This document shows positions 32,497-44,051 of a stretch of DNA of 64,000 bases, piece by piece (the stretch's first letter is position 1; each line of letters opens with the position of its first letter). The notes under the pieces were generated by a model. The model made no database searches. It had not been told where the DNA came from and saw only the letters and a list, made by a program, of their open reading frames with translations. The stretch is from assembly GCF_000296815.2 (NCBI RefSeq), contig NZ_CAIT01000004.1, positions 558,001-622,000 on the forward strand, written 5' to 3'. This DNA comes from Fibrisoma limi BUZ 3 (lineage in GTDB: Bacteria > Bacteroidota > Bacteroidia > Cytophagales > Spirosomataceae). Position numbers and translations under genes: made by a program.

Positions 32497-33111
32497 ATGA
32501 TGAAGTTTTTTCTGACTTTCCTGTGGCTGAGCCTAGGGTTCAGCTCGTTTGCCCAGTCATCTAACAATGCATCCGAAACCCATCACTACGCCATCGAAGT
32601 GGCCGGCATCCGGGTTGGTACCATGACCGCCGTTCGACAACCCCAGCCAGACAACCGCACCACGTACACGCTGATTAGCGACGTGAAGGTTAGTTTGCTG
32701 GTTTACACCGTGAAAATTTACTATAAAGTCGTCAATCAATTTCAGGGCGACAAGCTGATGCTATCAACGGTTGAAGCGAAAACCAATCGCGGTAATTACG
32801 CGTCGAGAACCGAATGGAAAGGGGATCATTACGACATTGTGGCGAATCAGTACAAGTACGATCACAAGGCTACCGAACGGACACCTATTGATTTTACTAT
32901 CTCCTCGTTGTATTTTGCCGAGCCCTTACAGCGAAGTAAGGTGTATGCCGAGTACTTTGGCGATTATTTTACGTTCTCCCGAACGTCCCGCGGAACCTAC
33001 CGCGCCGTGCTGAACGATCGGGAAGATGAGTATGTGTATGAGCAGGGGAGATTGGTGAAAATAATCAAACACAATGCGGTAAAGAATTATGTGATGCGGC
33101 TGCTGGATTAG
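32497..33111 (+). CDS. DUF6134-like exported protein
   Basis: 204 residues. MMKFFLTFLWLSLGFSSFAQ is a signal peptide. The mature part (YAIEVAGIRVGTMTAVRQ; VSLLVYTVKIYYKVVNQF; PIDFTISSLYFAEPLQ) resembles DUF6134, a Bacteroidota beta-rich periplasmic domain with no known activity. It ends in VIKHNAVKNYVMRLLD-like sequence. Followed 91 bases later by the transglycosylase gene on the same strand, so a shared transcript is possible. Confidence 0.7.
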   Translation: MMKFFLTFLWLSLGFSSFAQSSNNASETHHYAIEVAGIRVGTMTAVRQPQPDNRTTYTLISDVKVSLLVYTVKIYYKVVNQFQGDKLMLSTVEAKTNRGNYASRTEWKGDHYDIVANQYKYDHKATERTPIDFTISSLYFAEPLQRSKVYAEYFGDYFTFSRTSRGTYRAVLNDREDEYVYEQGRLVKIIKHNAVKNYVMRLLD

Positions 33112-33202
33112 CACAGCGGAGACACGACACGGAGGGGGCCGCCGAATACCGGGCACGTTCTGAACGGGCTTAGGATACGTAACCATCGCAGCCCACCGTT
33201 GT

Positions 33203-34495
33203 ATGACGAAGCTGATTCTGATAGCCGCAGCCGGTTTCAGCTGTGGCAGTTTTGCCGTAACTTCCGTAAACGCAAAGTCGCCGACCTACGCTACGGCCCT
33301 TCCGCTTACTACCATAGCGCCAACCCTTTTTGCGCTGCACAAACCCATCGAAGAGAAGCCGGTCGTCCGGTTCTGTGGGGAAAGTCTACCCGCCAACCAG
33401 CCCGATATTACGGCCCGTTGGGCTCGTACGTTGAGCCGACAGGCTGCCAGGGCGGGTAGCCTGGCCGCCCTGAAACGACGCGCATCGGTCGTGTTTCCGA
33501 TCATCGAGCCGATCATTTCGCGCTACGACATCCCTAATGATTTCAAATACCTGCCCCTGCTCGAAAGCGCTCTGACCACCCGCGCCGTGTCGCGCCAGGG
33601 AGCGGCCGGTTTCTGGCAATTGATGCCGCAGACGGCCCAGTCGATGGGACTGAGCGTGGCGCGTCGGCGCGACGAACGATTTAACTTGTTGAAGGCGACC
33701 CATGCAGCCTGCCGCTACCTGAAGCAATTGTATCAGCAACTGGGTTCGTGGATGCTGGTGGCGGCTGCCTACAACGCCGGCCCGAACTACGTTCAGCAGG
33801 TACGGCGGCAGCATCCCGATCAACATCCGCTGGCGTTGCCGCTCAAAGGCGTTACTAAAGCATATCTGTACCAGGCCGTAGCGGTTAAAGAACTGCTGAC
33901 CCGCCCCGAAGCGTACCGCGATTACCTGAGCAGTCGGCATCTGGCCGCGCTGAGCGATTCGCTGGGTGAGGCCATAACCACCGACGAACGCAGTACCATT
34001 CTGGCCTCGCTCGACATGAGTGCGTGGACTCCGACCGATTCGGTGGAGACCGAATGGGGTATTGCCATACCGGATAGTACGTCGGGGGTTGAGTTACTGA
34101 CCGAAGCGGATGAAACCGACGAAGCTGCTACAACGACTGATTCGGTAGTTGTTGCGCCGGTGGCGGACGTTGCCAAAGCGCCCTCCGTTCCGCGGCTGAC
34201 GACGCGTAGTTTAAGTGAGGGTGCTATTACGGAAGGGCAGTTGTGCGTGTTTCAGGTCGTGCAGCCCGTTACGCTCAATGGCTATACGTTTGCCGTCGGC
34301 GATATGATCTACGCTCACGTCGAACTGCTGGACGCGACCACGGGCAAAGCATTCCTGCGGACGGACAAAACCGTAACGGCCGATACGCAGGAAAGCCGTC
34401 CGCTGAAGCTAATCGCGGCCGACCAGCCCCGGCAGCCGGGCGTACCGATTCCTTCGCGGCTGGAAAACTGGCGGCTGGAGTGGGAGCAGTTGTAA
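33203..34495 (+). CDS. Lytic murein transglycosylase (SLT/MltD-like)
   Basis: 430-residue envelope enzyme that cleaves the glycan strands of peptidoglycan. The N-terminal MTKLILIAAAGFSCGSFAV is a leader. The SLT domain spans about 100-245: YLPLLESALTTRAVSRQGA has the catalytic Glu121, GFWQLMPQTAQSMGL follows, and AAAYNAGPNYVQQVR closes it. The C-terminal 130 residues are a different domain (EGQLCVFQVVQPVTLNGYTF, VGDMIYAHVELLDATTG, PSRLENWRLEWEQL) that I do not recognise. It contains repeated hydrophobic strands and may bind the wall or a partner. Confidence 0.86.
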   Translation: MTKLILIAAAGFSCGSFAVTSVNAKSPTYATALPLTTIAPTLFALHKPIEEKPVVRFCGESLPANQPDITARWARTLSRQAARAGSLAALKRRASVVFPIIEPIISRYDIPNDFKYLPLLESALTTRAVSRQGAAGFWQLMPQTAQSMGLSVARRRDERFNLLKATHAACRYLKQLYQQLGSWMLVAAAYNAGPNYVQQVRRQHPDQHPLALPLKGVTKAYLYQAVAVKELLTRPEAYRDYLSSRHLAALSDSLGEAITTDERSTILASLDMSAWTPTDSVETEWGIAIPDSTSGVELLTEADETDEAATTTDSVVVAPVADVAKAPSVPRLTTRSLSEGAITEGQLCVFQVVQPVTLNGYTFAVGDMIYAHVELLDATTGKAFLRTDKTVTADTQESRPLKLIAADQPRQPGVPIPSRLENWRLEWEQL

Positions 34496-34522
34496 AAGGA
34501 TTACAGTAAGTGCGTCAGTTGG

Positions 34523-34579
34523 CTATTTCTCAAAGGCCACGTAGTTAATCTTGACCGGCTCAGGAATCCAGCCAGTCTT
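34523..34579 (-). pseudogene. Possible C-terminal remnant of a lost gene (18 codons)
   Basis: The minus strand encodes KTGWIPEPVKINYVAFEK and then a TAG. A stop (TGA) directly precedes it. The text looks like a natural protein end, and its codons fit the genome, but the piece is far too short for firm assignment. Confidence 0.25.
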
Positions 34580-34608
34580 TCATTTGACGACTCGCCGGTC
34601 GTCGACAT

Positions 34609-35697
34609 TTAGTTTTCGTACACGATGGACAACCCCAGAAACTGATAGAAGGGGATGTTCCGGAACTGGCCATGGGGATTCAAGCCCGTGTAGGCTCTGA
34701 GATAGGCGCCCAAACGGGGTATGTTCGCGGAATTAGACGAAAACTTCCAGCCCATGTATCCGTTAAAACAAAGCCTTCGTTGCTCGTTGTTCTGGATCTC
34801 GTTCAGCAGGCTGGGGTCCGATACGGTACTACTGTTCAGGTAGAAGGGATAGCCAAACTGCACTCGATTGCGTACCTCCAGTGAGAGGATAAACCAGGCG
34901 TTTCGACTAGCCAGCCATCCCCGCACTTGCTGGTACTGATACTGCGCATACTGTTCAGCCCAGCGCCTGGAAGGAACCACTTTGGTCGTGTCTCCCTCAA
35001 CGGACCGGATACTGTACCACCCTTTTGACGGATTCAGTAAGGCCCGTACCCCGATTTTGAACGCATGATTATTTTCTGCTCGGCCATTTGGATCATTCAG
35101 GGTCAGGGCTGCTTCGGCAACCTCGTAGGAGATATTAACCCGGGTAATGGGCAGTGCGCTGCTCACGCGGTTTATGACAAGCTCATCGCCCAGATGAGTG
35201 CTCTCGTGGAAAAAGGGAATCAGCTTTAGAGCTACATTTTTTAGATGACGCCGATTGAGCTCTCTGAGCACGTTTAGTTCCACAAGGGCAAACCGGTAAT
35301 CGGTGTTAAGGATCGGGGCCGTAATCTGCTCGGTAAAGTCAAACCAGATGTTGGTCGAAACCGGTATGGAAATAGCCAGTCGCGTTTGTTGCCGTCGCCG
35401 GTTTAACCAGGTTGCGGAATAAATAGGTACCTCGACAGCCAGGTCGGTTTCGTTGTAAAACACATACAAGGCCTTCCGATTGGTGTTAATGTTGTACTCT
35501 CTCAGATTCAGACCGGCTCCTGCCTGAAGTTTAGTGAAAGGCGAATAGATGTCGGCGAGGAAATATTTTCCAAAGGAGCGTTGACTAAAAAAGCTTTTTT
35601 GGCTTACTGAGCTATCGTTTTGAGCAAACGTAGGAAGCGAGTAAAACAGGCTTACCAGGCAAAGTAGATAAGTCCGTATGAGCCATTGTCTTTGCAT
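34609..35697 (-). CDS. DUF1207-like outer-membrane protein
   Basis: 362 residues. MQRQWLIRTYLLCLVSLFYS and PTFAQ form the signal peptide, so the ATG at 35697 is chosen over a longer upstream start. The mature barrel-like sequence contains PFFHESTHLGDELVI, which matches the HxSSHLGDE signature of DUF1207 with a small change, plus TRLAISIPVSTNIWFDF and a terminal QFLGLSIVYEN. These are outer-membrane proteins of unknown function. The 144-base spacer before the GT9 gene shows nothing I can name. Confidence 0.7.
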   Translation of the reverse strand: MQRQWLIRTYLLCLVSLFYSLPTFAQNDSSVSQKSFFSQRSFGKYFLADIYSPFTKLQAGAGLNLREYNINTNRKALYVFYNETDLAVEVPIYSATWLNRRRQQTRLAISIPVSTNIWFDFTEQITAPILNTDYRFALVELNVLRELNRRHLKNVALKLIPFFHESTHLGDELVINRVSSALPITRVNISYEVAEAALTLNDPNGRAENNHAFKIGVRALLNPSKGWYSIRSVEGDTTKVVPSRRWAEQYAQYQYQQVRGWLASRNAWFILSLEVRNRVQFGYPFYLNSSTVSDPSLLNEIQNNEQRRLCFNGYMGWKFSSNSANIPRLGAYLRAYTGLNPHGQFRNIPFYQFLGLSIVYEN

Positions 35698-35841
35698 ACC
35701 GTTGAATTTATTGGTTAACTCCCGCTCTGCAAACACTGTTCAACAGCCTAAGTTTGTCGAAGGAGAGATAGTGAATTTGATTGCTTACTATGCATAACCC
35801 ACGTTAGACTATTGGCCAGTTTGGCAAAAACGGCTGAACAC

Positions 35842-36879
35842 TTAATACACAGTCTGCAACAGATCCTCCACCTCGGCCAGCATGCGCTCGGTAGTTGCGT
35901 CTTTTTCCAGCACGACGCGGTGGCGTTCGCGATCCAGGGGAGCCCATTCGGCGGGGTCGGCGGAGGTGAAGACAACGACGCTCGGCGCGTGGCAGGCTGC
36001 GGCCAGGTGCGATACACCGGTGTCGTTGCTGATGAGCACGGCGGCTCCGTCCAGAATGGCCGCCAGCGAACCAAGATCCGTCTGGCCGGCAATACTCACC
36101 GATGGGTGACGCATCAGCGCCTGAACCCGCTGGATGATGGGTTCTTCGGCGGTCGTGCCGGTCAACACAATGGTGTATCCCTGTTCGGCCAGAGCGTCGG
36201 CTACGTCGGCGAAGCGATTCTCCGGCCATCTTCGGCCCGAAATACCGCCCGCATGAATGCAGACGTAGGAGGGGGAATGTCGTATTTCGTTTTCTGTTTT
36301 CGGTTGTATGCCCGCTGTCGTCAGGATAGCCTGGGCCCTGGCACGGTCGTGTTCTTGAATTGGGAATTCCAGCTCATAGCCCTGCGCCGGAATGCCGACA
36401 TACTCCATTAGCCGCACGTGGCGTTTGACCTCATGCTCTTTTTCCGGGTAGGGCATGAATAACTCCGGATGGGGTAGAAACCGTTCGGGGTGATTTGTCG
36501 GGTGATAACCTACCACCGCTTTAGCGCCAAATAACGTCAGCATCGCGTTCACCAACGTACCGTTACCCTGCATCTGAAACACCATGTCCCACTGCCGGGC
36601 CTGCATTTCCTGCAGGAAGGCCACCGATTTTACTATGTCAAGCGGTTGCTCAGGCAATCCCGGCCAGCCGGGAAACGTAATAAATTCGTCGAAGATGTGG
36701 TTATAGCGCTCAACAAACTCCTGCGCCCAGGGTAAGGCAATGAGGGCGATGTGGGCGTCGGGGTAGGCCCTGCGAATCGCCCGGAACGCCGGTACGGCAC
36801 AAAGCAGATCGCCAAGCTTGATGGCGCGTAAAACGGCAATACGTTGGGGGGAAGCGGGTAGGGCGTTGTGGAATTGCAT
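35842..36879 (-). CDS. Glycosyltransferase family 9 (heptosyltransferase-like)
   Basis: 345 residues. GT9 enzymes transfer heptose from ADP-heptose to the LPS inner core in the cytoplasm. RIAVLRAIKLGDLLCAVPAF is the family N-terminus. The C-terminal nucleotide-binding half has CIHAGGISGRRWPENRFADV and the acceptor-site SNDTGVSHLAAACHAPSVV. The donor is presumed, not proven. It is the last gene of the glycan cluster, but a perfect hairpin at 36916-36954 separates it from the GT2 gene, so it may be expressed differently. Confidence 0.9.
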   Translation of the reverse strand: MQFHNALPASPQRIAVLRAIKLGDLLCAVPAFRAIRRAYPDAHIALIALPWAQEFVERYNHIFDEFITFPGWPGLPEQPLDIVKSVAFLQEMQARQWDMVFQMQGNGTLVNAMLTLFGAKAVVGYHPTNHPERFLPHPELFMPYPEKEHEVKRHVRLMEYVGIPAQGYELEFPIQEHDRARAQAILTTAGIQPKTENEIRHSPSYVCIHAGGISGRRWPENRFADVADALAEQGYTIVLTGTTAEEPIIQRVQALMRHPSVSIAGQTDLGSLAAILDGAAVLISNDTGVSHLAAACHAPSVVVFTSADPAEWAPLDRERHRVVLEKDATTERMLAEVEDLLQTVY

Positions 36880-36915
36880 GGCGGGGCGTCGGATTGGTCG
36901 ATACTACGCGTGGCT

Positions 36916-36954
36916 CGGAAGCACGAACGATCTGGTTAAACGTTCGTGCTTCCG
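36916..36954 (-). terminator. Hairpin between the GT2 and GT9 genes
   Basis: CGGAAGCACGAACG (36916-36929) pairs perfectly with CGTTCGTGCTTCCG (36941-36954) around an 11-base loop. It lies 17 bases after the GT2 stop codon (minus strand) and ahead of the next gene. No strong T-run follows, so partial read-through is possible. Confidence 0.55.
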
Positions 36955-36971
36955 GATGACAAAAGTGAAAC

Positions 36972-37958
36972 CTACCAATACAGTACTCGATACTTGAAAG
37001 CGCCGTATAGCCGCCAGTATACCGACAGGAACGGCGTTGGTACGGCCGTCAGGATAGCGTGTTTGATGTCGATCCACCGCCAGTGTCCCTCGGGGAGTCG
37101 TCGGATGGTCAAATCAGCCGTAGACAGGAGCCAGACCGAAAGACCGGCCGAGGCAACGAATCCGCTGAATGGCAGGGTTAACAGGCCGATCACACCACCC
37201 ACAACGGTCAGGTAGTACTGAAACACCAGCCCCCGGTACGCCGGAATCCGTTCGCGGAACAGGTCCGGGTGACGTTTGTAGAGCAGGGCATCATACCGGT
37301 TTTTCCGCTCGTCGCGCAGGGGAGCGTACCAGGGCGCTTCGCGCAGGGGATGAACAATCACCGCTTCAGGGCACTTTGTAACAGGAATGCCTAACTCCAG
37401 AAATTTGAATTGCAAATCGCTGTCTTCGCGCCAGGCAATGTCGAACGCTTCTTCAAACCCACCGACCCGCTGCAAGGCAATCCGGGAACAGAAACAGTTG
37501 GCTGTTACAAACTCCGCCGTTTCGAGCAGGGCCGTAGTACGGTCGTGGTGCGTAGCCTGATTGGGCAGCGGCATACGTACCGAGCCGGTAACGACCTGCG
37601 CGCCCCGCCGAAAACACACCAGCGCGGCCGACAACCAATCGGGCTGCGGCACACAATCGTCGTCGGTAAAGGCCACGACCCGGCCCCGGGCGGCCCGCCA
37701 GCCCCGGTTGCGGGCGGCAGCCGGACCCCGCCGTTCGGGCTGGCCCAGATAGCGAATCTCCAGCGGGCCACCCTGCCGGGCTACCCGTTTCGTGAACTGC
37801 CAGACGGCCTCAGCCGTTTCGTGCGAGTTACCGTCGTCAACTACAATAATCTCAAACTGGTCGCGGGGCAGCGTCTGCTGACTCAGGGCTTCCAGACATT
37901 TCATTAAAAGGGCCGGTCGCTGATACGTCGGAATCACGACCGAGAACTCCGGTGTCAT
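36972..37958 (-). CDS. Glycosyltransferase family 2 with C-terminal membrane segments
   Basis: 328 residues. GT-A fold: EFSVVIPTYQRPALLMKCLE, EIIVVDDGN (first Asp pair), AARNRGWRAARGRVVAFTDD with the DxD-type FTDDDC, and VTANCFCSRIALQRVGGFEE with FDIAWREDSDLQFKF as the acceptor base region. After residue 240 come two hydrophobic stretches (LVFQYYLTVVGGVIGLLTLP, GFVASAGLSVWLLSTADL) that should anchor it in the inner membrane. It extends a surface-glycan chain, sugar unknown. Second last in the cluster, 112 bases after the carbamoyltransferase. Confidence 0.9.
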   Translation of the reverse strand: MTPEFSVVIPTYQRPALLMKCLEALSQQTLPRDQFEIIVVDDGNSHETAEAVWQFTKRVARQGGPLEIRYLGQPERRGPAAARNRGWRAARGRVVAFTDDDCVPQPDWLSAALVCFRRGAQVVTGSVRMPLPNQATHHDRTTALLETAEFVTANCFCSRIALQRVGGFEEAFDIAWREDSDLQFKFLELGIPVTKCPEAVIVHPLREAPWYAPLRDERKNRYDALLYKRHPDLFRERIPAYRGLVFQYYLTVVGGVIGLLTLPFSGFVASAGLSVWLLSTADLTIRRLPEGHWRWIDIKHAILTAVPTPFLSVYWRLYGAFKYRVLYW

Positions 37959-38070
37959 GGTATTGTGTAGTTAACTGTATTAAGTTTCATGTTCCAGGTG
38001 TCAAGTTTTCGTTCGGCTGACAGAGTACCTGTTGGAACTTAGAACCTGAAACCGGGAGCTTTAACTTTCT

Positions 38071-39870
38071 TCAACTAAAAAGGGGCTGGAACTCCTTCGA
38101 GACGGCTTCGCTCTGGCGCGACCAGCTACTGCCGGTTTTCTCCAGCATGAACGAGCCGATCACCAGCGCATCCAGGGGCGATGTCCAGAACGATTCCACC
38201 GCATCGCGCGGGGTGCAGACCACCGGTTCGCCCTGCGTATTGAACGAGGTGTTGATCAGCACCGGTACGCCCGTTTTCTCCCGAAACGCCTTCAGCAGCC
38301 CGTAGTACGACGGGTTTTGCCCCGCGTTAACGGTCTGGATTCGGGCCGTTCCGTCGGTATGCGTTACGGCCGGAATCTCGTGTTTGCGATCGTCGCGGAC
38401 GTCGTTCACAAACAGCATGAACGGCGACTTGCGGGCGTTGACGAAATACGTATCGGCGTACTCCTCCATCACCACCGGCGCAACAGGTCGAAAATCCTCA
38501 CGATCTTTCAGGTCGTTCAGTTTTGCCTGCATCTCGGCCGGGAACGGGGGCGCCAGTATTGACCGAGCGCCCAGCGCTCGTGGACCAAACTCCATGCCCT
38601 GCTGGAACCAGCCGATGATATGCCCGTCGGCAAGATACTCAGCGACTTCTTCCGCTACGTTGTCCAGTTTTTTATACGGTAGCTTCGACCATTGTAAAAA
38701 CCGTTCTATTTCGTCATCGGCAAATTTGGGGCCAAGATAGGCGTGTTCCATCTCGTAGCTCCGTTCGTCCGTCCGGCGTTGCTGCGCGTCAATCCACATG
38801 GCCGCACCGAGGGCCGTACCAGCATCGCCCGCGGCTGGCTGCACCCAGATGTTTTTGAACGGTCCGCGATCGCGTAGTCGGGCGTTCATCACGCAGTTGA
38901 GTGCCACACCACCCGCCATGCACAACGTATCGACACCAGTTTTTTCGTGCAGCCACGTAATGAGTTGCAACACCGTTTCTTCCAGTACGGTCTGCACCGA
39001 ATGCGCAATGTCGAAGTGGATGGCTTCCAGCGGACCACCCTTGTCGCGGGCGGGGCCGAATGTTTCGACCAGCTTCAACGGCGCAATGGTGTACTGCCCA
39101 TCATTGCTTATTCGAATGAGACTACGGAAATAATCGACATACTTCGGTTTTCCGAACGATGCCAGCGCCATGACCTTGTATTCGTCCGATGAGTGGAGGA
39201 AGCCGAGGTAGCTCGTCATCTGTTCGTACAGGAGGCCCAGCGAATGGGGCAGGGCTACTTCACCCAGCAACTCCAGTTCGTTGCCGTTGCCCATCCAGTA
39301 GCTGGTCGAAACCTGCTCCCCGCGTCCGTCGAGCACGAGTACGGCCGCTTTTGTGTGCGGACTAGGCAGAAAGGCGCTGGCTGCGTGGGCCAGGTGGTGG
39401 TTGACAAACTGCCACTGCCCGAGGTTGTCGAGCGTAGCGCCTTTGAAGCGTTTCGACAGGTGCAGCGGTACGCCGTCGACCAGGTGTCCCGGTGCGTTCA
39501 GAATCGCCGACAGAAACATACCGGCGTAGGGATTCTCCCAAGCCAGCCCACCGTTGGGGTTGAGCGAAGTCTGGGTGCCCTCCGGCCGCAGGGGAATCTC
39601 TACGGTTAGTTTCTCCTGATGATCGCCCAGCAGCGGATACGGGTCGAACGAGTAGGCGATGTGGTCGACTTCGCTGAGGGTGATACCGGCGGTTTTCAGG
39701 CAGAAGTCAATGGCGTTGTAGGGTAACTCCCAGGTCGAAAACGGAACAGGCCGCTTGCCGTGCTTGATGTGCGTGAAGCGTTCTTCTTCGGCGGCTGCCA
39801 GCACCACACCGTCTTTAACAAGGGCTGCGGCCGGGTCGTGAAAGGCCGCATTGATACCAAGCGTGATCAT
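38071..39870 (-). CDS. Carbamoyltransferase (NodU/CmcH family)
   Basis: 599-residue enzyme transferring a carbamoyl group from carbamoyl phosphate via carbamoyl-AMP to a hydroxyl. The N-terminal Kae1-like domain begins MITLGINAAFHDPAAALVKD and holds the metal-binding His158/His159/His162 in NHHLAHAASAF with Asp181 in VLVLDGRGE. The C-terminal domain has FGPRALGARSILAPPFP, KLNDLKDREDFRPVAPVV and NTSFNTQGEPVVCTPRDAV. It overlaps the upstream GT9 by four bases (ATGA), so the two are coupled. In Pseudomonas a homologue (WapO) carbamoylates LPS core heptose, and the GT9 and GmhB neighbours point the same way. Confidence 0.93.
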   Translation of the reverse strand: MITLGINAAFHDPAAALVKDGVVLAAAEEERFTHIKHGKRPVPFSTWELPYNAIDFCLKTAGITLSEVDHIAYSFDPYPLLGDHQEKLTVEIPLRPEGTQTSLNPNGGLAWENPYAGMFLSAILNAPGHLVDGVPLHLSKRFKGATLDNLGQWQFVNHHLAHAASAFLPSPHTKAAVLVLDGRGEQVSTSYWMGNGNELELLGEVALPHSLGLLYEQMTSYLGFLHSSDEYKVMALASFGKPKYVDYFRSLIRISNDGQYTIAPLKLVETFGPARDKGGPLEAIHFDIAHSVQTVLEETVLQLITWLHEKTGVDTLCMAGGVALNCVMNARLRDRGPFKNIWVQPAAGDAGTALGAAMWIDAQQRRTDERSYEMEHAYLGPKFADDEIERFLQWSKLPYKKLDNVAEEVAEYLADGHIIGWFQQGMEFGPRALGARSILAPPFPAEMQAKLNDLKDREDFRPVAPVVMEEYADTYFVNARKSPFMLFVNDVRDDRKHEIPAVTHTDGTARIQTVNAGQNPSYYGLLKAFREKTGVPVLINTSFNTQGEPVVCTPRDAVESFWTSPLDALVIGSFMLEKTGSSWSRQSEAVSKEFQPLFS

Positions 39871-41009
39871 GCGTTGAGTAGTCGGTTTGCGTAGGAAACT
39901 AATTTAGATAATACGTTGACAGGCTGCGGAGCCAGTTCCCGCACGGCCCGAACAATGGCCTCGGGCGAAGCGACGGGCTCGGCTGGCTCGGGAAATTGCT
40001 GCAACAGCACATTTTTAGAGCGCAGGGCTTCGGGTACGTCGAAATACAGCACCCGGCCCGGTACCTGCCAGGGCGTATGCTGCGGATTGGTTTTGGCATA
40101 CAGCACCACCACCGGCGTACCGATGGCAGCCGCCAGATGAACAGGCCCCGTGTTGTTGGCAATCAATACCGGCGCTTCGGCAATCAGAGCCGCGAGTGTC
40201 GCCAGGTCCATCATACCGGCCAGATTGAATGCATCGGGGCCGATCTGCTGACAGATACCGTCAACGTAAGCCCATTCCGATGCGCTGCCAGTCAGGATGA
40301 TCTGATAATCGTGGATATCGGCCAGGCGATTCGCGGCTTTGACGTAGCAGTCGGCAGGATAGCGCCGTTTTTCTTCGCTAACGCCCGGATGCAGGATAAG
40401 CCACGGCCGGTTTGGACTCACACCTGTTTCTTTCAGCAGGTCAATGGCCTTTTCATGAGCTTCCGCCGGAATTTGCAGCGACAGGTGGGTATCATTGGTG
40501 TAGCAGCCAATGGCAGCCACCAGATCAAGTTGCCGGTTTACTTCATGTCGGGTTGCGACCAGTACCTCTGGGTCCGGAATCCAGTCGGTGATCAGGCGAT
40601 ACGGGTTTTCGCGGCAGTAGCCGAGCACACGCGGAATACCGGCTAGGTAGCACAGCATAGCGGCCGGCAGCGGATTCTGGCTCTGCACCGTGAACAGAAT
40701 AGCCGCATCGAACCGCTGTTGCCGGAGTTCTTCGGCCATCGTTACTACGTTGGCTGGGTCGTGGTCAGTTTGTTCCGAGCGCACCCAGGGTACATCAACC
40801 GTAATTACATCATCAATTTCAGGAATCATCCCGGCTACGGCCGCTCCTACGGGCGAGGTGAGCAGGGTCAGGTGGCAGTTAGGATAGGTTTCCTTCAACG
40901 CCCGAAAAGCGGGCGTTGTCATCAGTACGTCGCCAAAGTTGTCCGGCCGTACGCAAAGGATACGTAACGGCTTGCCGCTAAGTAAGTTGCCCCAGTAAGT
41001 TTCGTTCAT
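39867..41009 (-). CDS. Glycosyltransferase family 9 (heptosyltransferase-like), second copy
   Basis: 380 residues. RILCVRPDNFGDVLMTTPAF is the acceptor-binding N-terminus and HLTLLTSPVGAAVAGMIPEI follows. The C-terminal half has WLILHPGVSEEKRRYP (donor phosphate region) and IANNTGPVHLAAAIGTPVVV. It is distinct from the other GT9 in the cluster, suggesting two successive heptose additions or one heptose and one other sugar. The stop overlaps the start of the carbamoyltransferase by four bases, the tightest coupling in the cluster, and it follows GmhB by 70 bases. Confidence 0.91.
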   Translation of the reverse strand: MNETYWGNLLSGKPLRILCVRPDNFGDVLMTTPAFRALKETYPNCHLTLLTSPVGAAVAGMIPEIDDVITVDVPWVRSEQTDHDPANVVTMAEELRQQRFDAAILFTVQSQNPLPAAMLCYLAGIPRVLGYCRENPYRLITDWIPDPEVLVATRHEVNRQLDLVAAIGCYTNDTHLSLQIPAEAHEKAIDLLKETGVSPNRPWLILHPGVSEEKRRYPADCYVKAANRLADIHDYQIILTGSASEWAYVDGICQQIGPDAFNLAGMMDLATLAALIAEAPVLIANNTGPVHLAAAIGTPVVVLYAKTNPQHTPWQVPGRVLYFDVPEALRSKNVLLQQFPEPAEPVASPEAIVRAVRELAPQPVNVLSKLVSYANRLLNA

Positions 41010-41079
41010 AACGTTGCGTCAGTTTCGAGTATACCAGCGTTGAGTTGATCGCCTGGTTGGTTAACTCCGAAAACGGTAG

Positions 41080-41691
41080 CTAAGATTTGTATAGGTAGCC
41101 TACGGCCGGCTTATCAATTACACGGCTATTGGGTGGTCCGGCCGAAAGAATCAGATCGGAGGCTTCGGCCAGATCGCGAACCGTAGCCAGTGGTTCTCGA
41201 TGAGGCCCTGGCTTCCATTCGGTTTCGTTACCCCGGTCGACCAGGATAGACCGGCATCCGGCGCGGTTACCGGCTTCGACATCGTTCAGAATATCGCCGA
41301 TCATCCATGACTCGCCCAGATCAATGTCATGTTCCCGGGCGGCCTGTAACAACATGCCCGGTTCGGGTTTGCGTAGTCCGCAACGAATGGCATACGGCGT
41401 TACGGTGCCGTCCGGATGATTGGGGCAATAATACCAGGCGGCCAGCCGAACGTTGAAGGGAGCCAGAAGCTCGTTCAACTTCGCAAATACGGCAGGCAGG
41501 GCGTCTTCCGTAAAATAGCCCCGGGCAACCCCGGCCTGGTTCGACACGACTACAAATTGATACCCTGCCTGCTGTAGTTTTTGCAGGGCAGGTCCGGCTT
41601 CCGGATAAAGCGAAATTAAGGCCGGATCAACGTTGTAGGGAATATCGGGAATAATGGTGCCATCCTTGTCGAGAAAAACGGTCCGCTGCAT
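41080..41691 (-). CDS. gmhB: D-glycero-D-manno-heptose 1,7-bisphosphate phosphatase-like (HAD-IIIA)
   Basis: 203 residues. The HAD motifs are FLDKDGT (Asp8, Asp10), VVSNQAGVARGYF and SWMIGDILNDVEAGNRAG. In the ADP-heptose pathway GmhB removes the 7-phosphate. The zinc loop is incomplete: YYCPNHPDG and IRCGLRKPEPG keep Cys89 and Cys104, but the positions of the first His and the last Cys of the canonical C-P-H-H/C-x-C pattern are Asn91 and Leu106. It may therefore fold without zinc or act on another sugar bisphosphate. Twelve bases after the GT4 gene. Confidence 0.85.
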   Translation of the reverse strand: MQRTVFLDKDGTIIPDIPYNVDPALISLYPEAGPALQKLQQAGYQFVVVSNQAGVARGYFTEDALPAVFAKLNELLAPFNVRLAAWYYCPNHPDGTVTPYAIRCGLRKPEPGMLLQAAREHDIDLGESWMIGDILNDVEAGNRAGCRSILVDRGNETEWKPGPHREPLATVRDLAEASDLILSAGPPNSRVIDKPAVGYLYKS

Positions 41692-41703
41692 AATCGCCCG
41701 AGT

Positions 41704-43026
41704 TCAGTTTTCAGAGGTTAATACCCGGGATGAATCCGGTTCAATGGATGACGGGTCGATAACCCGCCGTTTCAGTCGAGCCGGTACCAACTGCCCCGTC
41801 AGGATCAGTTCGTACAGATTGGCCGTTTGCTGGGCAACCTGAAGCCAGGTGTAAGAGTCCTGTACGTGCCGGATTGCTTCCTCACTCAGTAAGTCGCGGA
41901 GTTTTTTGCTGTAAAGCAAAGCCGCCAGCTTGGCTGCCAGTGCGGCTGGGTCGTTTGGCGGTACCAGAAAACCGGTTTCGCCGTCGAGTACGGTTTGCTT
42001 GATGCCACCTACGGCCGAACCCACAACGGGCGTACCACAGGCCATTGCTTCAAGGGGGGTGATACCAAACGGTTCATAGAGGGGCGTGGTCACGAACGCA
42101 TCGGCGGCACTGTAATAATAGCGTAAGGTTTCGCGCTGCCGTCTACCCGTAAACGTCACCTGATCCGTTACGCCTTCTTCGGTGGCAATTCGTTGCAGGC
42201 GGCCAATTTCGGGAGTTAGTTGCGGATCGGGTAGATCCGATTCACCCCCCACAATCAGCAGCCGGGGTATCATGCCGTACGACCGGCGCAGGCAGCCCAT
42301 CGCCCGCACTACGTTATCGACCCCTTTACGCGGCACCATCCGGCCCAGTTGCAGAATGATAGGTTCGTTAGGGTCCAGTCCCAGTACCATCCGGGCCAGG
42401 GGTTTTTCAATCGGATAAAATTCGTTGGGGTTGTATCCGTTCGGAATGGTAAAGATTTTAACCGGATCAGCTACGTACAGATTGATCAGATCGTCGCGAT
42501 CCTGCGGGCAGAGAGCAATCAGTGCATCAGCTTCGCGGATAACGCGCTGCTCAACCGTGAATCGCTCGGCCGGAAACCGGTCGCAGTCGCCCTGAATCTG
42601 CTTGCGTACCTCGCCCAGAGCGTGGAACGTAACGGCAAAGGGAATGTGCAACGCTCGCTTGATGTTGGCCGCAACCAGCCCGGACATGAAGAAGTGGGCG
42701 TGAATCAGGCGATACGGGTCCCCTTCCTGTTTAAAGAACCGGACGGTGTTTTCGGTAAACTCGTCCATGTAGCATAACAGCTCCTCCTTAGGTACAAAGC
42801 CAACCGGTCCCGCTTTGATGTGAACAACCCGAATACCTGGTTTCCAGTCTACCGTTTCGGGAAGGGCGTTGTTGTCCCACCGGGTAAAAATGTCAATCTG
42901 GTAGCCCAGTTTCGACAAATGCTGGGCCAGTTCGGCAACGGCGATGTTTTGCCCGCCAGCATCAACCCCGCCGATCAGTGCCAGCGGTGAGGCATGTTCA
43001 CTGATTAATGCAAGTTTCCATTCCAT
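41704..43026 (-). CDS. Glycosyltransferase family 4 (sucrose/mannosyl-transferase-like)
   Basis: 440 residues, GT-B fold. The start MEWKLALISEHASPLALIGG with GVDAGGQNIAVAELAQHL resembles sucrose-synthase-related GT4 enzymes. The C-terminal half has LQLGRMVPRKGVDNVVRAM (donor-binding GRxxxxKG), YYSAADAFVTTPLYEPFGIT and PLEAMACGTPVVGSAVGGI with the catalytic Glu region. The ATG at 43026 is used; the 28 upstream codons are AT-rich and end in a long open but unlikely stretch. First gene of the cluster, divergent from the SDR gene. Confidence 0.9.
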   Translation of the reverse strand: MEWKLALISEHASPLALIGGVDAGGQNIAVAELAQHLSKLGYQIDIFTRWDNNALPETVDWKPGIRVVHIKAGPVGFVPKEELLCYMDEFTENTVRFFKQEGDPYRLIHAHFFMSGLVAANIKRALHIPFAVTFHALGEVRKQIQGDCDRFPAERFTVEQRVIREADALIALCPQDRDDLINLYVADPVKIFTIPNGYNPNEFYPIEKPLARMVLGLDPNEPIILQLGRMVPRKGVDNVVRAMGCLRRSYGMIPRLLIVGGESDLPDPQLTPEIGRLQRIATEEGVTDQVTFTGRRQRETLRYYYSAADAFVTTPLYEPFGITPLEAMACGTPVVGSAVGGIKQTVLDGETGFLVPPNDPAALAAKLAALLYSKKLRDLLSEEAIRHVQDSYTWLQVAQQTANLYELILTGQLVPARLKRRVIDPSSIEPDSSRVLTSEN

Positions 43027-43197
43027 TGAGTAGTTCTTCAGCAATGAGTGCGTAAGAGTAAAGTAGTCTTCTAACTTTATATAGTAAGAAAGGTTGTTAA
43101 AATGCAGCATGAAGAACTGTTTATGTTCAAAATTTGAGGTTACGGACCAGAGGTTTTTTCATCGGAATCAGCCAGTAGATAAAACCCTGATAATGCG

Positions 43198-43205
43198 TAG
43201 TTTTG
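43198..43205 (+). promoter_or_regulatory. Possible -7 box for the SDR gene
   Basis: TAGTTTTG matches TAnnTTTG and is 63 bases before the SDR start. No clear -33 TTTG is at the expected distance, so this is tentative. The 242-base spacer 43027-43268 otherwise shows no gene. Confidence 0.35.
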
Positions 43206-43268
43206 CGTCGTAAACAGGCTTTTTTGCTGTAATAGCCTTACATTCATTTGTTGAATATAACACTCATT

Positions 43269-44051
43269 ATGACACGGATAGCGTTGATTACCGGAGCGTC
43301 GTCGGGCATTGGTCTAGCCACCGCCGAAGCCTTTGCTGATTTGGGATATAGCCTGATCTTATGCGGTCGGCGGCAGGAACGGCTCGATGAATTGACTCAG
43401 AATCTTCGGCAGCGGACCAGCGAAAACTCAGCCGATGAGGAAACGCCCTCGTTTACTACGCTCAACTTCGATGTCCGCGACCGGAACGCAGTCGAGTCGG
43501 CGATTGGTAGCCTGCCCGACGAGTGGAAAGCCATCGATATTCTGATCAATAACGCCGGTAATGCCTACGGGTTCGCACCCATTCAGGACGGCGACCCGGA
43601 CGACTGGGACCTGATGATCGATGGTAACGTGCAGGGGTTGCTCTACGTATCAAAAGCAGTCATTCCGGGCATGGTTGAGCGTAAGCGCGGCCACATTGTT
43701 AACCTGAGTTCCATTGCTGGTAAGCAGACCTACGCCAACGGAGCCGTGTACTGTGCGAGCAAGGCTGCCGTCGAAGCCCTGAGCGAAGGAATGCGCCTGG
43801 ACCTGACCCAGCACGGTATCAAGGTAACGAACATTGCACCGGGAGCGGTTGAAACCGAGTTTTCGATGGTGCGTTTCAAAGGCGATGCCGACCGGGCCGC
43901 GAAGGTGTACGAAGGGTTTACGCCCCTTACGGCCGAAGACATTGCCGACACAATCGTGTATGCCGTAACGGCCCCGGCCCACGTCACCATTGCTGACTTA
44001 ACCATTCTGGCGAGTGCCCAGGCGGCCGCCACAACGATTCACAGGAAGTGA
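43269..44051 (+). CDS. Short-chain dehydrogenase/reductase (YdfG-like)
   Basis: 260 residues. Classical SDR: TGASSGIG near the N-terminus for NAD(P) binding, LILCGRRQERL with a basic residue favouring NADP, INNAGNAYGFAPI, the active-site Ser in HIVNLSSIAGKQTYANGA, and the catalytic YCASK (Tyr, Lys). The segment NIAPGAVETEFSMVRFKGD with the end ADLTILASAQAA resembles the 3-hydroxy acid/serine dehydrogenase YdfG group. The ATG at 43269 starts exactly at the beta strand; a longer frame from 43248 adds a leader without support. It stops seven bases before the inverted repeat at 44058. Confidence 0.92.
   Translation: MTRIALITGASSGIGLATAEAFADLGYSLILCGRRQERLDELTQNLRQRTSENSADEETPSFTTLNFDVRDRNAVESAIGSLPDEWKAIDILINNAGNAYGFAPIQDGDPDDWDLMIDGNVQGLLYVSKAVIPGMVERKRGHIVNLSSIAGKQTYANGAVYCASKAAVEALSEGMRLDLTQHGIKVTNIAPGAVETEFSMVRFKGDADRAAKVYEGFTPLTAEDIADTIVYAVTAPAHVTIADLTILASAQAAATTIHRK

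Follow-up and report, generated by a model that had tools for sequence, protein, structure and literature searches.

One question that is raised by a 64,000-nucleotide stretch of the Fibrisoma limi BUZ 3 genome (contig NZ_CAIT01000004.1, positions 558,001 to 622,000 of the forward strand; hereafter the window) is what is made by a group of six glycan genes that lie together on its minus strand, at 35842-43026, or 43110 if an upstream start is used. This group, which we call the cassette, encodes a carbamoyltransferase, a GmhB-like phosphatase and four glycosyltransferases. An earlier note on this DNA had proposed a carbamoylated-heptose surface glycan, either a lipopolysaccharide (LPS) core or a separate glycan. 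We compared the cassette with its relatives in other bacteria and, based on this comparison, consider it somewhat probable that it is dedicated to a short, heptose-containing, O-carbamoylated oligosaccharide which is generally not an LPS core.

Read along the minus strand, the cassette comprises a GT4 glycosyltransferase similar to sucrose-phosphate synthase and MshA (41704-43026; the frame stays open up to another ATG at 43110), the GmhB-like HAD phosphatase (41080-41691), whose profile matches are below cut-off, a first heptosyltransferase-like GT9 (GT9 A; 39867-41009), a NodU/CmcH-type O-carbamoyltransferase (38071-39870), a GT2 glycosyltransferase assigned by family match (36972-37958) and a second heptosyltransferase-like GT9 (GT9 B; 35842-36879). 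Profile searches and the list of open reading frames agree with the frames and families that had been given for the six genes, and the four-base overlap between the carbamoyltransferase and a GT9 is exact: an ATGA at 39867-39870 of the minus strand holds the stop of GT9 A and the start of the carbamoyltransferase. The span that had been drawn, 38071-43026, contains four of the genes but omits GT2 and GT9 B, which belong to the same unit. The genome (7.6 Mb in 14 contigs) has a single match to the carbamoyltransferase N-terminal family, the window copy; of its five GT9 matches, two are those of the cassette.

Does this grouping reflect more than chance? We compared 100 loci, 20 from the order and 80 from a public genome collection. 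In three of these (L076-L078) the carbamoyltransferase is a distant one and the other five genes are all missing; the remaining 97 include 94 with different carbamoyltransferases, and the 70 of these with 7 kb or more to either side served as the conservation set. All six genes are found in 54 of these 70 untruncated, non-identical loci. GT2 is present in all 70, GT9 B in 67, GT4 in 61, GT9 A in 57 and the GmhB-like gene in 55. The median cassette span is 7.3 kb. Gene order and strand are variable, but in 69 of the 70 loci GT2 adjoins the carbamoyltransferase when only the six genes are counted. As a control we took 59 hand-picked loci (3.4-17 kb; L190-L249 minus L208, which is a cassette locus) of other gammaproteobacterial carbamoyltransferases; 13 of them, which look WapO-type, contain a GT9, and none has a GmhB-like match at E<=1e-4. 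Because of the 54 complete loci, the nearly constant GT2 neighbour and the lack of GmhB-like matches in the control, we regard the linkage as more than chance. Among the titles and abstract openings returned by a full-text literature search, no description of the cassette was found; PMC3966863, PMC3759415 and PMC8305402 concern other carbamoyltransferases.

The window carbamoyltransferase is far over both Pfam cut-offs (PF02543, 221.4 bits against 24; PF16861, 238.5 bits against 27). In an alignment, H11, H158, H162, D181 and D349 are invariant in 95 of 95 rows and are common to NovN and GdmN; by analogy with TobZ, these positions would be catalytic or metal-binding. The nearest solved relatives are the antibiotic enzymes NovN, GdmN and TobZ, all of them distant, and the cassette enzymes form one tight clade of 58-96% identity, with the next full-length match at 46%. 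Within the order, 81 of 291 genomes have a carbamoyltransferase match, and 18 of the 81, the window genome included, form a group with 62-80% identity to the window protein, again followed by a next full-length match at 46%. In the public collection search the best 80 of 163 relatives were kept. These are 61-96% identical to the window protein and, with taxa as named in the records, come from 40 Bacteroidota, 28 Burkholderiales, seven Planctomycetota, two Ktedonobacteria (Chloroflexota), one Gemmatimonas bin, one Verrucomicrobia and one bin named Wolfebacteria. In this last bin (L099, contig NVTD01000059.1) the cassette is Ralstonia-like, likely a binning error. The copy of Fibrisoma montanum is 96% identical to that of the window. 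Nine plasmid records, from Caballeronia, Paraburkholderia, Burkholderia multivorans, Cupriavidus and B. cenocepacia, carry a relative of 58-64% identity (next plasmid match, 46%), and both of the plasmid records that were inspected with annotation contain the cassette. A low-oxygen locus of B. cenocepacia was considered as a connection and dropped, as no evidence for it was found. Among 369 Gammaproteobacteria (in the GTDB sense), 102 have a carbamoyltransferase match; the close form is limited to G293 (the query's own centre) and G608, at 65 and 62%, and in the others the full-length matches do not exceed 46% and the partial ones 50%. The earlier statement that no equivalent is described in this lineage was thus framed too narrowly, since the cassette recurs in several phyla.

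The next question regards the sugar. The functions of gmhA, of the two hldE domains and of hldD were sought in the window genome and all four were found: GmhA with 247.3 bits (cut-off 209.45), the heptose-7-phosphate kinase with 319.7, which is under its cut-off of 345, the adenylyltransferase with 192.5 (181.5) and HldD with 374.7 (274.6). The lack of an ADP-heptose pathway, which by the earlier note would have refuted its reading, thus does not apply. A second GmhA-like gene (contig 9:102310-102762, L016; 107 bits) adjoins a kinase-like gene, of ROK type by eye. In other genomes the supply genes are found at the cassette itself. A bifunctional HldE occurs there in 11 of the 100 loci (seven Chitinophaga records, two Pirellulales, a Fulvivirgaceae genome and Dictyobacter), and L208 and L263, the latter continuing Ktedonosporobacter L104, contain it too. 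Its adenylyltransferase domain, on which the NCBIfam support for HldE is based, scores 181.9 bits in Dictyobacter and 184.0 in Chitinophaga, against a cut-off of 181.5, and 200 bits in L208 and L263. At the cassette, Dictyobacter (L087) and Ktedonosporobacter (L263) encode GmhA as a protein by itself, and in L088 it belongs to a longer one. In three genomes (L138:16979-18862, L140:16873-18762 and L141:16877-18766, the last by BLAST only) the cassette GT4 carries GmhA as its C-terminal domain. The best GmhA-type family of the cassette copies is phosphoheptose isomerase. Such a natural fusion of GmhA to GT4 speaks strongly for a cassette that handles heptose. Of 22 carrier genomes, 20 have the adenylyltransferase domain over cut-off; it is below in G296 and without a match in G679, the Gemmatimonas bin; HldD was not noticed at the cassette, where no search was aimed at it. 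The HldE and GmhA genes and the fusions give the cassette a firmer link to ADP-heptose than the names GT9 and GmhB, on which the heptose indication had first been based, could give by themselves, and we regard the heptose supply as well supported.

Both GT9 proteins exceed the PF01075 cut-off of 22 (GT9 A, 105.4 bits; GT9 B, 125.7). GT9 A falls just under the heptosyltransferase II equivalog cut-off (134.0 against 134.6), the best equivalog of GT9 B is heptosyltransferase I (94.1 against 185.3), and neither passes any of the models I, II and III. The best named solved relatives of both are LPS heptosyltransferases, and in a tree each forms one clade, separate from the other GT9 of the window genome. 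The best NCBIfam matches of the GmhB-like protein are heptose-bisphosphate phosphatase models, below cut-off (PRK08942, 137.2 against 178; GmhB_yaeD, 111.9 against 149.6), and among its solved relatives D,D-heptose-1,7-bisphosphate phosphatase ranks second and third, behind an unnamed protein. Its HAD aspartates (DxD) are kept in 72 of 72 rows. Of the positions that correspond to the zinc-loop ligands of E. coli GmhB, C89 and C104 are kept in all 72 rows, His91 in 69 and Cys106 in 68. A second GmhB-like gene of the window genome (contig 6, L025:1498-2052; 115 bits) is without the loop cysteines. GT4 is probably the first transferase; in the PDB it comes closest to a sucrose-phosphate synthase, with 247 bits, and to MshA, with 200. 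The sequence of GT2 suggests membrane contact: the window protein has one hydrophobic segment (244-262), and at least one is found in 83 of 93 rows, some of which are over-long open frames.

A seventh gene, encoding a glycosyltransferase of ~320-370 residues with the motif WHIHGxYL in most copies, is linked to the cassette in 68 of the 100 loci. Its sole homologue in the window genome is unlinked, on contig 6, with 48% identity to the query and 72% to the copies of L061 and L084. The predicted structure of the Dictyobacter protein (pLDDT 88) has a GT4-type GT-B fold, and the PDB entries closest to it, BshA, sucrose-phosphate synthase and tll1591 among them, are enzymes of GT4 type. These share 12-17% identity with it, and therefore we claim no donor.

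From these families a possible mechanism can be drawn, in which we infer all donors and acceptors, the order of the steps, the sugar that is carbamoylated and the surface location. GmhA, the GmhB-like phosphatase and HldE, whose genes lie beside the other cassette genes or at another place in the same genome, would provide ADP-glycero-manno-heptose. GT4 would place the first sugar on an acceptor, and the two GT9 enzymes would add heptoses. The carbamoyltransferase, using carbamoyl phosphate and ATP, would then carbamoylate a sugar hydroxyl, most likely on heptose, and GT2 and the seventh gene would supply further sugars.

Several observations weigh against this reading. The window GmhB-like protein has N91 and L106 and so keeps two of the four zinc-loop ligands, and in the window genome HldE and GmhA are both absent from the cassette. 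Where HldE does lie there, its kinase domain is below the curated cut-off in Dictyobacter, Chitinophaga, L208 and L263, and five cassette GmhA scores, 156-203 bits, are below 209.45. GT9 A neighbours the carbamoyltransferase in just 30 of the 70 loci, against 69 for GT2, so the carbamoyltransferase's substrate may be the product of GT2. Within the stretch compared, 16 of the 70 loci are without at least one gene, and six Cytophagales loci (L068-L072 and L075, by locus only) show no GmhB-like gene or GT9 A. Some of these misses may come from the limits of the stretch compared and others may be real; Ktedonosporobacter L104, for example, was scored without the GmhB-like gene and GT9 A, and its continuation L263 contains a GmhB-like gene and two more GT9. 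Finally, the 18 annotated recurrent neighbour families include no initiating phosphosugar transferase or polymerase.

Which other products could fit these data? One option, which we consider unlikely, is that in the window organism the cassette builds an LPS core or a core-linked branch, with heptose carbamoylated as in Pseudomonas. The window genome has LpxC and the ADP-heptose gene set, GT9 enzymes classically act on LPS, and WapO is described in PMC8005017, a Pseudomonas paper, as a putative heptose carbamoyltransferase, with a carbamoyl on HepII of the core. An LpxC match is present in six of eight carrier genomes, one of them a Fibrisoma close to the window genome; the search controls, E. 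coli and three others (of 14), were positive. Yet the same cassette is carried by Dictyobacter and Ktedonosporobacter, the two of the eight in which no LpxC match was found, and both carry GmhA, GmhB and HldE at the cassette. Both are Ktedonobacteria, which have a single-membrane cell plan. Since LpxC is not detectable there, the product in these bacteria is not an LPS core; of the two products left open by the earlier note, the LPS core is contradicted as the general one by these two carriers, though the window organism may make it. The WapO analogy is not supported as descent either. WapO-type proteins were assigned by gene context (a carbamoyltransferase near GT4 and GT9), without any named WapO sequence, in a search that gave 60 loci from the 369 Gammaproteobacteria; 13 were WapO-type, none of them in the first batch of 20. 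In a 117-row tree the 30 cassette carbamoyltransferases form one clade (SH-aLRT 100), and the 13 WapO-type rows, at 34-38% identity, fall outside it, in a separate 19-row clade with six others (the tree was made quickly, and the branches of the non-cassette rows are long). WapO was for this reason rejected as the parent of the cassette enzyme. The GT9 A and GT9 B clades are likewise apart from the GT9 of the WapO-type loci, and no LPS-core heptose kinase was found among the ten window genes scanned (32497-44051).

The PDB neighbours of GT4 raise another option, a soluble oligosaccharide or stress solute. For this, GT4 would act like sucrose-phosphate synthase and MshA and link a sugar to a sugar phosphate, the HAD enzyme would remove the phosphate, and heptosylation and carbamoylation would follow. 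The phosphate ligands of MshA are K78, R154, Y110 and T134. GT4 K80 and R155, which align with the first two, are invariant in 77 of 77 rows, in favour of this option, but the positions matching Y110 and T134 are F and A in all 77, and HldE and GmhA beside the HAD enzyme point to a heptose-bisphosphate substrate. Stress-type neighbours also speak for a solute, and Burkholderia multivorans adds a BON domain and sigma-54 regulators, but such neighbours are a small minority: of 100 loci, Mn catalase and DUF4142 each occur in six, a Rieske oxidoreductase in eight and a glycogen-debranching-like protein in four. We see in them a hint of a stress role only, and hold the solute to be quite unlikely. 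Least of all do we expect a tailoring set for a glycosylated secondary metabolite, which we judge very improbable; NovN, GdmN and TobZ are the nearest solved relatives of the carbamoyltransferase but are distant, and the annotated recurrent neighbour families, which are part of all families, include no constant aglycone-type gene.

Carbamoylated heptose is known from Pseudomonas, where it decorates the LPS core. If the preferred reading of a carbamoylated heptose oligosaccharide is true, the Ktedonobacteria without detectable LpxC and with their own ADP-heptose supply would indicate that such heptose glycans are not confined to LPS, and the cassette provides a delimited group of genes in soil bacteria that can be cultured. 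ADP-heptose is a signal of innate immunity, and new producers outside LPS biology would be of interest. A wider proposal, which we put forward tentatively and consider doubtful, is a new glycan class of diderms and LPS-less bacteria alike: a carbamoylated, ADP-heptose-derived oligosaccharide, begun on a phosphorylated or lipid acceptor by the sucrose-phosphate-synthase/MshA-like GT4, whose cassette has moved between phyla and which serves stress survival.

Other genes around the cassette are less constant. In the window it is flanked by a divergent, YdfG-like short-chain dehydrogenase/reductase (SDR; 43248-44051) and a DUF1207-like gene (34609-35736), neither of which we count as part of it. 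Related SDRs are found at Dictyobacter L087:130-885 and Verrucomicrobia L154:7443-8177, with the similar C-termini TETSWP and KETSWP. Transporters near the cassette are of ABC type in 27 loci and of MFS type in 10; one possible exporter is an ABC transporter whose C-terminal domain is a response regulator (L136:3489-6200 and 26 other loci, mostly Burkholderiaceae). A sugar epimerase/dehydratase family is present in 28 loci, often of Burkholderiaceae, and the records name one member UDP-glucuronic acid decarboxylase. In Planctomycetota and Chloroflexota a radical SAM/SPASM protein (L104 was scanned) comes immediately after GT2 (L086:12734-14017, L104:12715-13734, L112:12713-13726). The Burkholderia multivorans locus (L260, NZ_CP020399.1) is a variant in which an SDR precedes the HAD gene and which also has sigma-54 regulators and a gene with a BON domain; its incomplete gene table lists no GT4 at the usual place, and a GT1-type gene lies at the far end.

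How does the cassette compare with known systems? The WapO (PA5005) system resembles it in having a NodU-fold carbamoyltransferase near GT9 and GT4, with heptose as the probable substrate. The 13 WapO-type loci differ from it in the clade and the 34-38% identity of their carbamoyltransferases and have no GmhB-like gene in the stretch compared; L221, the one that was scanned, has the heptose kinase RfaP over cut-off, and two of the genomes that carry the cassette have no LpxC match. NovN, GdmN and TobZ belong to the same family as the cassette enzyme, and NovN and GdmN align with it over residues 154-578 with motifs in common; on the side of differences, all three are antibiotic enzymes. MshA and the sucrose-phosphate synthase Tll1590 are like the cassette GT4 in overall sequence and in the GGQN and YEPFG motifs, whereas two of the four phosphate-binding positions of MshA are changed throughout the cassette enzymes. 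The GmhA-GmhB-HldE pathway is found as a whole trio at the cassettes of the two Ktedonobacteria, two Chitinophaga, the Fulvivirgaceae genome and a Pirellulales bin; what distinguishes the cassette from this plain pathway is its coupling to GT4, even by fusion, to two GT9, to GT2 and to a carbamoyltransferase.

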